Of a stretch of 64,000 nucleotides of DNA, positions 24,603 to 28,631 are shown piece after piece. Every line of letters begins with the position of its first letter. The first letter of the stretch is position 1. Source of the DNA: Pandoraea oxalativorans (GTDB lineage Bacteria > Pseudomonadota > Gammaproteobacteria > Burkholderiales > Burkholderiaceae). The position numbers and the translations under genes were made by a program. The stretch is from the NCBI RefSeq assembly GCF_000972785.3, contig NZ_CP011253.3, positions 5,084,001 to 5,148,000 of the forward strand, in the 5' to 3' direction. The notes beneath the pieces are model-generated. The model had not been told where the DNA came from. It searched no databases and saw only the letters and a list, made by a program, of their open reading frames with translations.

Positions 24603-24641
24603 TGAACCGCCCCGGATTTTGTGGAGATACCGTCTTGCCCG

Positions 24642-25625
24642 TCAAGCGATTGCGACGTAGTTCGCCCGATAAGGCTGTCGTGTCTTCAGAACGCCGAAAC
24701 ACAGATGCACAAGCTTACGCATTGCAGCGCCGAGTATAGACATGGTGGATTTGCCACGCGCTGCCAAGCGTTCACACAATGCCTTGATGTGGGGGTTATA
24801 GCGTTTAGCGACGACGGCCGCCATGTAGAGAGTTGCCCGTACCTTGGGCGGCCCGGCCTTCGATAAACGTGAAGGGCCCTGGATCGACGATCCCGACTGC
24901 CTCTGCACCGGCACCAGGCCGAGATACGCCGCAAGTTGTTCTGCAGAATCGAAGTGGCGCGCGTGCATGATGGCAAGCAGCGTGCGGCCTACCTGAGGGC
25001 CAACTGCCGGGATACTTTGCAGCAGCATCAAGTTTGCTTTAAGGCCCGGATGGGCAGCAATGTGATCATCGATCTCGCGTTGCAGGCTGGCTAAATGGCG
25101 CTCCAAAAACTCGATCGTCTCGAGAATCGAATGCAGGACTAGCGCCGTTGGAGCCGTGATTTCCGCTTTCTCATGCCGGTTGCGCTCACGCTGAAGATCT
25201 TGTGCAAGCGCTTCACGGCGCGCCATCAGTGCTTGAAGTATGCGAGCCTCGGGCGCTGGAGGACTCCAGCGCATTGGCTGTGCGTGCATCGCAAAGCGCG
25301 CTAACACGTGGCTGTCTACCATGTCGTTCTTCGTGCGCACGCCCATTCCCGTCGCAAAAGCACGCACCTGCGCAGGATTAACGACAGACACGGAGAGCCC
25401 GGCATCGTGCAGGCCACACGCGGCCATCTCGTGATAGACGCCGGTACCTTCGAGCGCGACATGTACGTGGCTCGGCTCGGTGTGTCTCTTGCCCAACCAG
25501 CCCAACAGATCGGTTAGGCCGGCGCGGCTATTGGCAACAACCTTCGTACTATGCTTGCCGTTTGTCATGTCCAGCAGGCAGCAATCCAGCTTGGCTTTGG
25601 CAACATCAATACCGAGGTAGAACAT
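24642..25625 (-). CDS. IS110-family transposase (element A)
   Basis: This encodes 327 residues. An N-terminal DEDD RuvC-like domain (MFYLGIDVAKAKLDCCLLD, VALEGTGVYHEMA, KNDMVDSHVLARF) is followed by a coiled region. A C-terminal Tnp domain carries the catalytic Ser region (IPAVGPQVGRTLLAI, AAYLGLVPVQRQSGSS, and KVRATLYMAAVVA). ATG 25625 gives the normal N-terminus. IS110 recombinases act as dimers or tetramers guided by a bridge RNA. The coding region ends only about ten bases from the left boundary of the element. Confidence 0.93.
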   Translation of the reverse strand: MFYLGIDVAKAKLDCCLLDMTNGKHSTKVVANSRAGLTDLLGWLGKRHTEPSHVHVALEGTGVYHEMAACGLHDAGLSVSVVNPAQVRAFATGMGVRTKNDMVDSHVLARFAMHAQPMRWSPPAPEARILQALMARREALAQDLQRERNRHEKAEITAPTALVLHSILETIEFLERHLASLQREIDDHIAAHPGLKANLMLLQSIPAVGPQVGRTLLAIMHARHFDSAEQLAAYLGLVPVQRQSGSSIQGPSRLSKAGPPKVRATLYMAAVVAKRYNPHIKALCERLAARGKSTMSILGAAMRKLVHLCFGVLKTRQPYRANYVAIA

Positions 25626-25832
25626 CAATTTGATCCTTAATCGAGGAATCAATACCAACTCACCCACTTGCCTTGTACATACAGGGTCCACGCCCTTGGC
25701 TACCGTTCAGTGTCTGTGCTGGTGAGGGCGAGGCGAAGGGCATTATCTCCACAGCAAGGTCCAAGCCTTCAGGCTCCAAACATGCTCACTTCACCTCATG
25801 TGACGGTAGCTAACCATCACGAAGACGAAGAT
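25626..25832 (-). ncRNA. candidate bridge RNA region of IS110 element A
   Basis: This is the non-coding end upstream of the transposase, where IS110-group elements encode the bridge RNA. Read on the minus strand, TTGGAGCCT (25779-25771) is identical to the left side of the target in the element's orientation (complement of 25836-25844). Seventeen bases later, TGTGGAGATA (25753-25744) is complementary to the right side of the target (it equals the plus-strand flank 24620-24629). This is the order and polarity of left and right target guides in a bridge-RNA target loop. The donor loop and exact RNA ends were not resolved. Confidence 0.7.
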
Positions 25833-25863
25833 ACAAGGCTCCAACTCTTGAGAGAATGGAGCC

Positions 25864-26190
25864 ATGAACAAGAGATCGAGCAAGTTTTCCCCGGAAGTCC
25901 GGGAGCGCGCAGTGCGCCTGGTGCGCGAGCAGCGTAGCGAGCATCCGTCGCTGTGGGCGGCGGTCGAGTCGATTGCGCCGATGATCGGCTGCACGCCGCA
26001 AACGCTGAACGATTGGGTCAAGCGCGACGAGATCGATAACGGCGAACGTGCCGGCCTGAGCGCGAGCGAGCGTGATCGCCTGAAGGCGCTGGAGCGCGAG
26101 AACAAGGAATTGCGCAAGACCAACGAGATTCTCAAACTGGCCAGCGCGTTTTTCGCCCAGGCGGAGCTCGACCGCCGTATCAAGTCCTGA
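25864..26190 (+). CDS. IS3-family OrfA
   Basis: This encodes 108 residues. The N-terminal helix-turn-helix ([37 protein letters not shown]) is followed by a leucine-zipper-like C-terminus ([21 protein letters not shown]). It is preceded by a GGAG ribosome-binding site at 25858. OrfA normally joins OrfB by a -1 frameshift near the GTTTTTC run at 26148-26154. It is intact, but its partner is interrupted. Confidence 0.92.
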
Positions 26191-26785
26191 AAGCCTTCAT
26201 CGATCAGCATCGCGACACCTTCGGGGTCGAGTCGATCTGCAAGGTTTTGCGGATTGCCCCGTCGGGTTACTGGCGCCATGCTGCCCAGCTTCGCGATCCA
26301 TCCAAGCGCTGCGCCCGAGTCAAGCGTGACGACGTGCTGTGCCCGGAAATCCAGCGTGTCTGGCACGCCAACATGCGGGTCTACGGCGCAGACAAGGTCT
26401 GGAGGCAGATGAACCGGGAGCAAATTCGGGTGGCCCGCTGCACGGTCGAGCGACTGATGCAGCGGCTGGGATTGCAAGGCGCGGTGCGCGGCAAACGGGT
26501 TCGCACAACGATTCCCGATGTCTCGGCACCTCGCCCGCTGGACCGGGTCAATCGCCAATTCAAAGCCGACCGGCCGAATCAGCTCTGGGTTTCCGATTTC
26601 ACCTACGTTTCGACGTGGCAGGGCTGGCTGTACGTGGCGTTCGTCATCGACGTGTTTGCACGACGCATCGTTGGCTGGCGGGTGAGTCGTACCATGCGCA
26701 CCGACTTCGTACTCGATGCGCTTGAACAAGCGCTGTATGCCCGCCAACCGGGCGACGACGGGACGCTGATCCATCACTCCGACAG

Positions 26786-27072
26786 TAAGAATACGGGTAT
26801 CAGATGTTTCCGGGCTTCTCGCGGCTTTCAATGAGGGCTGTCCGGCGACTTTTGGTGCCGTAAAGCGTTCCGGGCGACCTGACCCACATTCCGATCGACG
26901 TAGTGTCTTTCCCCTGACCTGTCGATCGTCCGGAACCGCCGAGCGGCGAGGTTTCGCCTCGTCGATACGTGTGACTCAAGAAGGGCCTGACGCTCTGTCG
27001 CTTTACTGTCTTGTCCAGGTACTCGATGCCGGTGAAATCGCCTCAATCTCATCGGCAACCGGAGCAAGGCTC
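26786..27072 (+). ncRNA. candidate bridge RNA region of IS110 element B
   Basis: This is the non-coding end upstream of the transposase. CATTCCGAT at 26887-26895 matches the left target CACTCCGAC (26775-26783) at seven of nine positions, and both mismatches would be G:U pairs with the opposite strand. TCCCCTG at 26910-26916 is the exact complement of CAGGGGA across the insertion point. Order and polarity equal those found for element A. A strong stem (GCGAGG...CCTCGT, near 26946-26965) could be part of the RNA scaffold. The match is shorter than for A, so confidence is moderate. Confidence 0.5.
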
Positions 27073-28158
27073 ATGAAAGAAGAACCGGCTATTTCTGGAT
27101 ATCGCAACGTTGTGGGCGGCGTGGATACCCATAAGGACGTGCATGTTGCAGCTGTCGTTGACGAACACGATCGTCTGCTCGGCAGTGAATGCTTCCCTAC
27201 CACGCGGCATGGCTACAAACAGATGCTGCTCTGGATGCGCTCATTCGGAGAGCTTGCCCGGGTTGGCGTCGAATGCACCGGCTCCTACGGAGCGGGCTTG
27301 CTTCGCTACCTTCAACTGGCCCACGTAACGGTGCTTGAGGTCACGGCACCCGACAGGAGCGACCGGCGCAAACGCGGCAAGGACGACACGCTGGACGCTT
27401 GCAACGCGGCGCATGCTGCCTTTGCTGGTGTGCGTACAGTCACGCCCAAGACACGCGACGGCATGATTGAATCGCTGCGCGTTCTGAAAGTCTGCCGGAA
27501 GACCGCCATCTCCGCGAGGCGCGTTGCATTGCAACTAATTCACAGTACCATCATCAGCGCGCCTGACGAGTTACGCGAATCGCTGCGCAAGATGACACGG
27601 ATGCAGCTTATTCGAACATTGGCCGCGTGGCGTCCCGATCTGTCTGACTATCGGAGCCTGATCTCTGCCAACCGGATTGCATTAAAATCACTGGGGCGTC
27701 GGTATCTCGAGTTGCACGACGAGATCGCCGACCTCGATGTCATGATCGCGGCTCTGGTCGATGAACTCGCCCCCGATCTGGTCTCCCGGTATTCAATTGG
27801 CTATGAGTCCGCTTCGCAACTGCTACTGACCGCTGGCGACAACAGCGACCGGCTTCAGTCAGAGGCCAGCTTCGCCGCCCTCTGTGGAGTGAGTCCCGTC
27901 CCGGCGTCTTCTGGCAAGGTGACACGACATCGACTGAATCGCGGTGGAGATCGCGCGGCCAACAGCGCCCTGCACATTATCGCCATCGGTCGATTGCGAA
28001 CCGACGATCGCACAAAAGCCTATGTCGCCAAACGCGTCAGCGAGGGCCACTCAAAGCTTGAAGCGATTCGATGCCTCAAGCGCTATATCGCACGAGAGGT
28101 CTTCTACGCCATCCGGCAACGTTACCGCCAGATCGCGCAGACCCAATTTACCTCTTGA
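27073..28158 (+). CDS. IS110-family transposase (element B)
   Basis: This encodes 361 residues. The DEDD domain is visible as GGVDTHKDVHVAAVVDEHD, VECTGSYGAGLLRYL and GKDDTLDACNAAHAA. The C-terminal domain has IGYESASQLLLTAGDN, AALCGVSPVPASSGKV, and HRLNRGGDRAANSALHII. ATG 27073 gives the proper start; the upstream extension runs through the non-coding end and is not protein-like. It is intact and so potentially active. Confidence 0.92.
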   Translation: MKEEPAISGYRNVVGGVDTHKDVHVAAVVDEHDRLLGSECFPTTRHGYKQMLLWMRSFGELARVGVECTGSYGAGLLRYLQLAHVTVLEVTAPDRSDRRKRGKDDTLDACNAAHAAFAGVRTVTPKTRDGMIESLRVLKVCRKTAISARRVALQLIHSTIISAPDELRESLRKMTRMQLIRTLAAWRPDLSDYRSLISANRIALKSLGRRYLELHDEIADLDVMIAALVDELAPDLVSRYSIGYESASQLLLTAGDNSDRLQSEASFAALCGVSPVPASSGKVTRHRLNRGGDRAANSALHIIAIGRLRTDDRTKAYVAKRVSEGHSKLEAIRCLKRYIAREVFYAIRQRYRQIAQTQFTS

Positions 28159-28631
28159 CCTTTAGAAGGGCGTCAGGGGATCGCAATATGTTTCCATTCG
28201 GTACACCGAGCGACTTGCCCAAGCGGGCATTGAGCCATCGGTCGGCAGCCGCGGCGACAGCTATGACAACGCCCTGGCGGAAACGATCAACGGTCTATAC
28301 AAAACGGAACTGATTCACCGGCGAGCGCCTTGGAAAACGAAGGAATCCGTCGAGCTCGCCACCCTGGAATGGGTAGCCTGGTACAACCATCATCGGCTGA
28401 TGGAACCGCTGGGCTATATCCCGCCAGCCGAGGCTGAGGCAAACTACTACAGGCAACTCAGAAATACTGCTGAAGCGCCTGCGTTAACTTAAACCAACCG
28501 GCCTCCTCGAAAGCCGGGGCGATTCAAGGATCAACCCGGGGCTTTTGGCATCGCTATGCAAAAGCTCCCAGCGTCCGTGATCACTGAAATTAAGAGCGGT
28601 CATTTTGACCACGCGAAGGAAGGCGCGAAGC

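Follow-up and report, generated by a model that had tools for sequence, protein, structure and literature searches.

An insertion sequence of Pandoraea oxalativorans, here called element A, is very probably a member of the IS110 group, with a left-end bridge RNA that matches its own insertion site. It lies in a window of 64,000 nucleotides (the whole stretch of DNA that was analysed), which is part of a genome of 6.5 Mb. The basis of this reading is formed by the sequences, the element boundaries, empty sites, the co-change of guides and targets, a conserved RNA structure, and conserved catalytic residues. RNA production, a circular form, and catalysis are proposed by analogy to IS621 and ISEc21. 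In the mechanism that we envisage, the left end of element A would encode the bridge RNA, whose donor-binding loop would recognise ACGGTAT-CT-TGTAT, the sequence formed where the ends of the element are joined in the circular form. Strand exchange by the DEDD/serine recombinase would then take place at the shared CT, nothing else being duplicated or lost. The perfect target in this genome is the terminal inverted repeat (TIR) at the left end of an IS3 element.

Element A and its transposase

Without the core dinucleotides, element A comprises 1209 bp (24627–25835, minus strand) and reads TGTATC...GGTAT; its ends were deduced from relatives and from the gap-free empty sites of other copies. A core CT, assigned by sequence comparison, adjoins it at the left end (25836–25837, minus strand) and at the right end (24625–24626, minus strand). 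The transposase (recombinase) gene at 24642–25625 on the minus strand codes for 327 amino acids and was identified by means of Pfam (PF01548 and PF02371) and by its homology to IS621 (8wt6). Inside the element, 210 non-coding bases precede the gene and 15 bases follow it.

Several traits of the IS110 group are present. The protein combines a DEDD RuvC-like domain with a Transposase_20 domain containing the catalytic serine (Pfam). A long non-coding left end lies before the gene and the right end is short. Insertion occurs at the core dinucleotide CT without any other duplication or loss, as deduced from gap-free empty sites at the three sites tested. Assignment to the IS1111 group was rejected, because the non-coding region is located upstream of the gene and not downstream.

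At a threshold of E≤0.001, IS621 (8wt6, E 6.8e-64) and ISCro4 (9t56, E 3e-59) are the only two distinct sequences of solved structure that match the transposase; the likeness to ISCro4 refers to the transposase alone. Residues D11, E60, D102, D105, and S241 of IS621 align with D7, E59, D101, D104, and S244 of element A (counted by hand) and are conserved. In the protein database, the nearest transposase is 98% identical and is annotated as Burkholderia gladioli. A search of the open-licence literature found nothing on element A, nor on IS110 in connection with Burkholderia gladioli.

The insertion site and its core

The host of element A is an IS3-family element of length 3924 (24603–28526, plus strand), which was identified by its Pfam domains HTH_Tnp_1, HTH_21, and rve and by its ends. 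It is interrupted twice, namely by element A (minus strand) in its left end and by a second IS110-type element in its integrase-core gene. On the transposase strand, the empty target in the left end of IS3 is TTGGAGC-CT-CCACA. Its left part TTGGAGC (25838–25844, minus strand) and its right part CCACA (24620–24624, minus strand) are IS3 DNA according to relatives and empty IS3 copies.

Uninterrupted IS3 copies of relatives read CCGGATTTTGTGGAGGCTCCAAC, which corresponds to TTGGAGC-CT-CCACA on the transposase strand. Among 32 genomes scanned, this 14-mer was found uninterrupted at IS3 left ends in five: exactly in the same-genus genomes G005 (three copies) and G012 (one copy), and with one mismatch in four copies from G013 (two), G018, and G019. 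The genome of element A itself contains none. No transposase match was detected in G005 at E≤0.001. About 898 bases of each of its three IS3 copies align with the IS3 element of the window (84%, 84%, and 95%); the G012 copy aligns only briefly.

The original prediction had rejoined the site differently, as TTGGAGCCTT-GT-ATCTCCACA with GT as the core and a right guide of ten bases. Since GTATCT is common to both junctions, the copies of element A are ambiguous and cannot place the core by themselves. Left ends were therefore compared in 13 relatives with unrelated flanks, leaving out L053, which is the same element as A. Twelve of them begin with (C/T)T-TGTAT and one (L051) with CT-CGTAT; the right ends recognised among these relatives read GGTAT-CT or GGTAG-CT. 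The blocks TGTAT/CGTAT and GGTAT/GGTAG are thus kept despite the unrelated flanks, and the empty IS3 copies lack TGTATCT. It follows that the core is CT and that TGTATCT is not target DNA. Moreover, when the flanks are joined with one CT between them, they align gap-free to empty sites, which refutes GT as the core; we give this version practically no credence. The predicted element boundary was wrong as well, as TGTATC...GGTAT belongs to element A. The guide had been read correctly from the raw sequence, with the core misplaced.

Guides for target and donor

Both predicted segments are located where they had been placed, on the minus strand upstream of the IS110 transposase gene: TTGGAGCCT at 25779–25771 and TGTGGAGATA at 25753–25744. 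As judged from the match to the target, the left target guide consists of UUGGAGC plus CU (25771–25779, minus strand) and fits in nine of nine bases, core included. A hairpin AAGG/CCUU, deduced from the alignment of relatives (25756–25769, minus strand), separates it from the right target guide UGUGG plus AG (25747–25753, minus strand). For the latter, the claimed match of ten bases had to be corrected to seven of seven, again including the core: the dinucleotide AU following the right guide (25745–25746, minus strand) fits the AT that precedes the core at the element's right end, and the longer match had therefore mixed target with element DNA. By analogy to IS621, where passages of PMC11208158 assign this place to it, AU may be the handshake guide of the target loop. 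With these corrections, the central claim holds that the target loop matches its own site, the left guide being identical to the top strand and the right guide being complementary to it.

The donor guides match the ends of element A. The left donor guide ACGGUAGC (25699–25706, minus strand) fits ACGGTAT-C in seven of eight positions, with one mismatch. The right donor guide AU-GU-ACAAG (25672–25680, minus strand) fits CT-TGTAT discontiguously, in the manner of IS621. The adjoining GC (25670–25671, minus strand) is a candidate handshake guide of the donor loop and fits target positions 6–7 (GC). Position 7 of this handshake is a Watson-Crick pair in 11 of the 14 closest elements (153 of 10,000 permutations as good) and in 21 elements of a wider set of 28 (43 of 10,000 as good). 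The wider set contains those of the 32 elements with an anchor motif, which L062, L063, L096, and L108 lack. At position 6, no excess was observed in either set (5/14 versus 3.7 expected, and 6/28 versus 5.3).

Structure of the RNA

A covariance model (R1) was built from an alignment of 13 relatives from which element A had been left out. Its sole match in the window at E≤10 is the segment 25655–25798 on the minus strand (127.8 bits, E 5.5e-31), which contains both target guides. The model places them in one internal loop, as the prediction had implied. The conserved fold of the alignment consists of a stem around both target guides and the hairpin, followed by a second such loop, so that the two internal loops of an IS621-type bridge RNA are present. 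On the 5' side of the target-binding loop, there is a further stem-loop (25800–25820, minus strand), each of whose seven pairs is formed in 12–14 of 14 sequences.

In the 13-relative alignment, 94.6% of the cells are paired, and changes on both sides occur in 21 of the 26 pairs. None of 500 shuffles of the alignment reached the observed value on four of five measures; the fifth, the pair-type count, was not above the shuffles (279/500 as high). Sliding the pairing partners by one to three columns reduced the paired fraction from 94.6% to 34–52%, a control that leans towards the structure because the structure counted was drawn on the same sequences. When the model was applied to 20 more distant or damaged loci, 19 were matched at E≤1 and L063 was missed. 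The model did not match the other IS110-type element of the window.

The structure was judged from alignments because the minimum-energy fold of the single sequence was no better than shuffles (z −0.95) and did not contain the target loop. RNAalifold additionally paired the start of the left end with the right donor guide; these pairs were read as donor recognition and not as RNA structure. Rfam reported no bridge-RNA family in the window at the gathering score, and at E≤1 the segment 25600–25870 gave nothing but one microRNA family below its cut-off.

Agreement between guides and targets in relatives

A collection of 38 loci was used to compare guides and targets. L099, L100, and L101 were excluded because their left end is unrecognisable, and the left-target test also dispensed with L057, L065, and L106, which were redundant or had no flank. 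The remaining 32 elements have a recognisable left end and transposases that are about 34–100% identical. The right-target test comprised 24 elements, namely 23 of these 32 plus L106; the others have no recognised right end. A transposase scan of the genome contigs yielded two relatives only.

The best left match had a mean of 7.5 of nine bases for the 32 relatives, compared to 5.95 for permuted pairings, and none of 100,000 permutations reached the observed value; the rows are not fully independent, since guides such as GCCCACCCT are partly shared. Eight or nine bases matched in 18 relatives and fewer than eight in 14, with L074 and L098 matching in five. If the core bases are excluded, the left target matches in seven of seven positions in 14/32 relatives, compared to 2.2% of mismatched pairings. 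For the right target, a seven-of-seven match was found in 17/24 relatives, compared to 7.4% of mismatched pairings.

One might argue that the protein or a DNA symmetry (GGAG...CTCC) chooses the site and that the match in the left end is a coincidence or a relic. The two targets of element A, left and right, do form partial inverted repeats, and the distance between GGAG and CTCC varies by a single base at three of the ten sites. However, the same loop also agrees with the target in relatives whose targets are very different and not palindromic. In 20,000 dinucleotide-shuffled versions of the left end (210 bases), the 9-mer occurred in 42 and the 7-mer in 1,119, but never both in order within 60 bases. 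The prediction had called a chance match unlikely, and the shuffles confirm this for the corrected segments. We therefore consider site choice by the protein or by symmetry very improbable and prefer a guiding RNA.

In L057 (G068), inspection by eye revealed that a duplicated stretch of 65 bases from the left end separates the target flank from the left guide. Flank and guide have ten bases in common; guide-target identity therefore makes short direct repeats. L098 (G450) has the left flank ACGGTAT, which means that the right end of a like element lies directly before its left end. This end-to-end arrangement bears on a circular intermediate with joined ends, for which it is only suggestive. 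L074, from an E. coli plasmid, is inserted in the donor-like site ACAGTAT.

Copies of element A and their sites

The genome contains 15 copies of element A, eight of which are intact (L001–L008) and seven split by other insertions, plus a remnant of 95 bases (86%). Ten of the 15 copies are located in an IS3 left end (nine full IS3 elements and the IS3 remnant of L002) and five elsewhere. An element with a 99% identical transposase was found in the same-genus genomes G011 (three copies) and G020 (one copy). The IS3 site was counted once because the IS3 copies suggest, though they do not prove, that IS3 and its load moved together, which results in ten distinct sites. All ten read CT followed by CC.

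In register, the left guide matches nine of nine bases at the IS3 site, eight at L054 and L055, and seven at L006, L007, L012/19, and L013/14. Its in-register scores at L008, L053, and L056 are 4, 5, and 4, and they rise to 9, 8, and 8 once a single additional base is admitted in the target. The right guide matches seven of seven bases at the IS3 site and L006, six at L007, L008, and L054, five at L012/19, L053, L055, and L056, and four at L013/14. Thus, the other copies occupy sites that fit the same guides and are not unrelated to them, with the reservation that three of the ten sites require a one-base bulge on the left and that five fit in just 4–5 of the seven bases on the right. If the bulge is allowed, the fraction of the 5,845 CT positions of the window that score as well as the sites of element A ranges from 0 to 0.047. 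The upper value belongs to the weakest site L013/14, which is hardly above chance. Without the bulge, 0.137 of the CT positions score as well as L056.

Flanks joined with a single CT align gap-free to same-genus genomes at the three sites tested (L008, L055, and L053). For L008, 26 other genomes gave a match, and 10/10 loci fetched were empty and gap-free; the same holds for 10/10 loci fetched for L053 and for the one full-length match of L055 (G030). The empty site in G030 reads the L008 target exactly, including the extra base, which therefore belongs to the target. At the core position of L053, ten relatives have GT (4), TT (5), or GG (1), and the relative of L055 has CG; as these dinucleotides differ from CT, the original core is uncertain at both sites.

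A scan of the genome of element A found no unoccupied exact 14-mer, one site with one mismatch, and ten with two. These 11 near-target sites are fewer than the 20 obtained with a reversed-pattern control.

Relation to known systems

Bridge RNAs, their guides, the CT core, natural covariation, and the tolerance of target insertions have already been described (passages of PMC11208160, PMC11208158, and PMC11187229). Element A is close to IS621 and ISEc21 and represents a known type of mechanism, not a new type of system. With IS621, as portrayed in parts of PMC11208160 and PMC11208158, it shares a homologous recombinase, a left-end bridge RNA with two loops, a nine-base left guide including the core, a CT core, a discontiguous right donor guide, and handshake bases. 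In contrast, the target of element A is an IS3 TIR, whereas IS621 targets REP elements, and the right guide fits seven bases, whereas IS621 uses four. Lengthening the right guide of IS621 from four to seven bases improved specificity, as stated in a section of PMC11208160. Given this gain and the seven-base fit, the recombinase of element A might be a useful ortholog.

ISEc21 resembles element A in having its non-coding region upstream and its target within IS3-family members (passages of PMC11187229). There, it is the second-D codons of IS3-family transposase genes that are targeted, whereas element A aims at the left TIR; the place typical of ISEc21 targets is taken by the window's second IS110-type element. 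Like element A, IS4321 and IS5075 of the IS1111 group insert in the TIRs of a different mobile element; according to a title cited in PMC11187229, these are the TIRs of Tn21-family transposons. They differ in their host, a Tn21-family transposon, and their group has a downstream non-coding region and sub-terminal inverted repeats of 7–17 bp.

Element A provides a natural test of the bridge-RNA model beyond the published examples, with guide, donor, and occupied as well as empty sites readable in one clade. An IS110 element that aims at an IS3 TIR may allow one mobile element to be carried by another. The IS3 TIR as target, the presence of two IS110-type elements on one IS3, and the three targets that are longer by one base add to the interest.

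The host IS3 and the second IS110-type element

The second IS110-type element (about 26786–28175, plus strand) interrupts IS3 at codons that read H-H-S-D, a type of site known from ISEc21. Of its 16 copies in the genome, eight lie in this IS3 and eight have left flanks like CATTC(C/G)GATAG. In all nine full IS3 copies, element A is inserted at the same base; eight of them additionally contain the second element, and the outer flanks differ. Two diverged IS3-like matches (76% and 70%) were left out of this check.

It is somewhat more plausible than not that the ten IS3-borne copies descend from one insertion spread by the loaded IS3 and do not represent repeated guided insertions, a question that concerns the copy number and not the guide. 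The common position of both elements despite differing outer flanks is in line with such a spread, as are the further insertion that L009 and L010 share at the same place in element A and the equal 3-bp outer flanks seen by eye in three of the seven copies with a right end found. However, strict guiding would also yield an identical position, and equal outer flanks could predate the entry of element A. Moreover, four of these seven copies have no equal flanks, and the IS3 gene is interrupted in eight of the nine copies, so that IS3 movement would need a transposase from elsewhere.

As a tentative and rather doubtful extension, two differently guided IS110-type elements may have specialised on one IS3, one on the left TIR and the other on the catalytic-codon region, with IS3 serving as vehicle for both and with the guide of element A accepting one extra target base as a regular mode and not by occasional mistake.

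Of the nine full IS3 copies, only L177 (G000:C1:3653000-3658100) lacks the second element at the H-H-S-D codons, and a further insertion splits its copy of element A. The IS3 right end reads AACCGGC-CT-CCTCG at the corresponding position, a sequence that fits the guides in 2/7 and 3/5 positions. Rfam identified an ALIL pseudoknot (RF01497, 114.3 bits; 26145–26261, plus strand) where the two IS3 reading frames meet.
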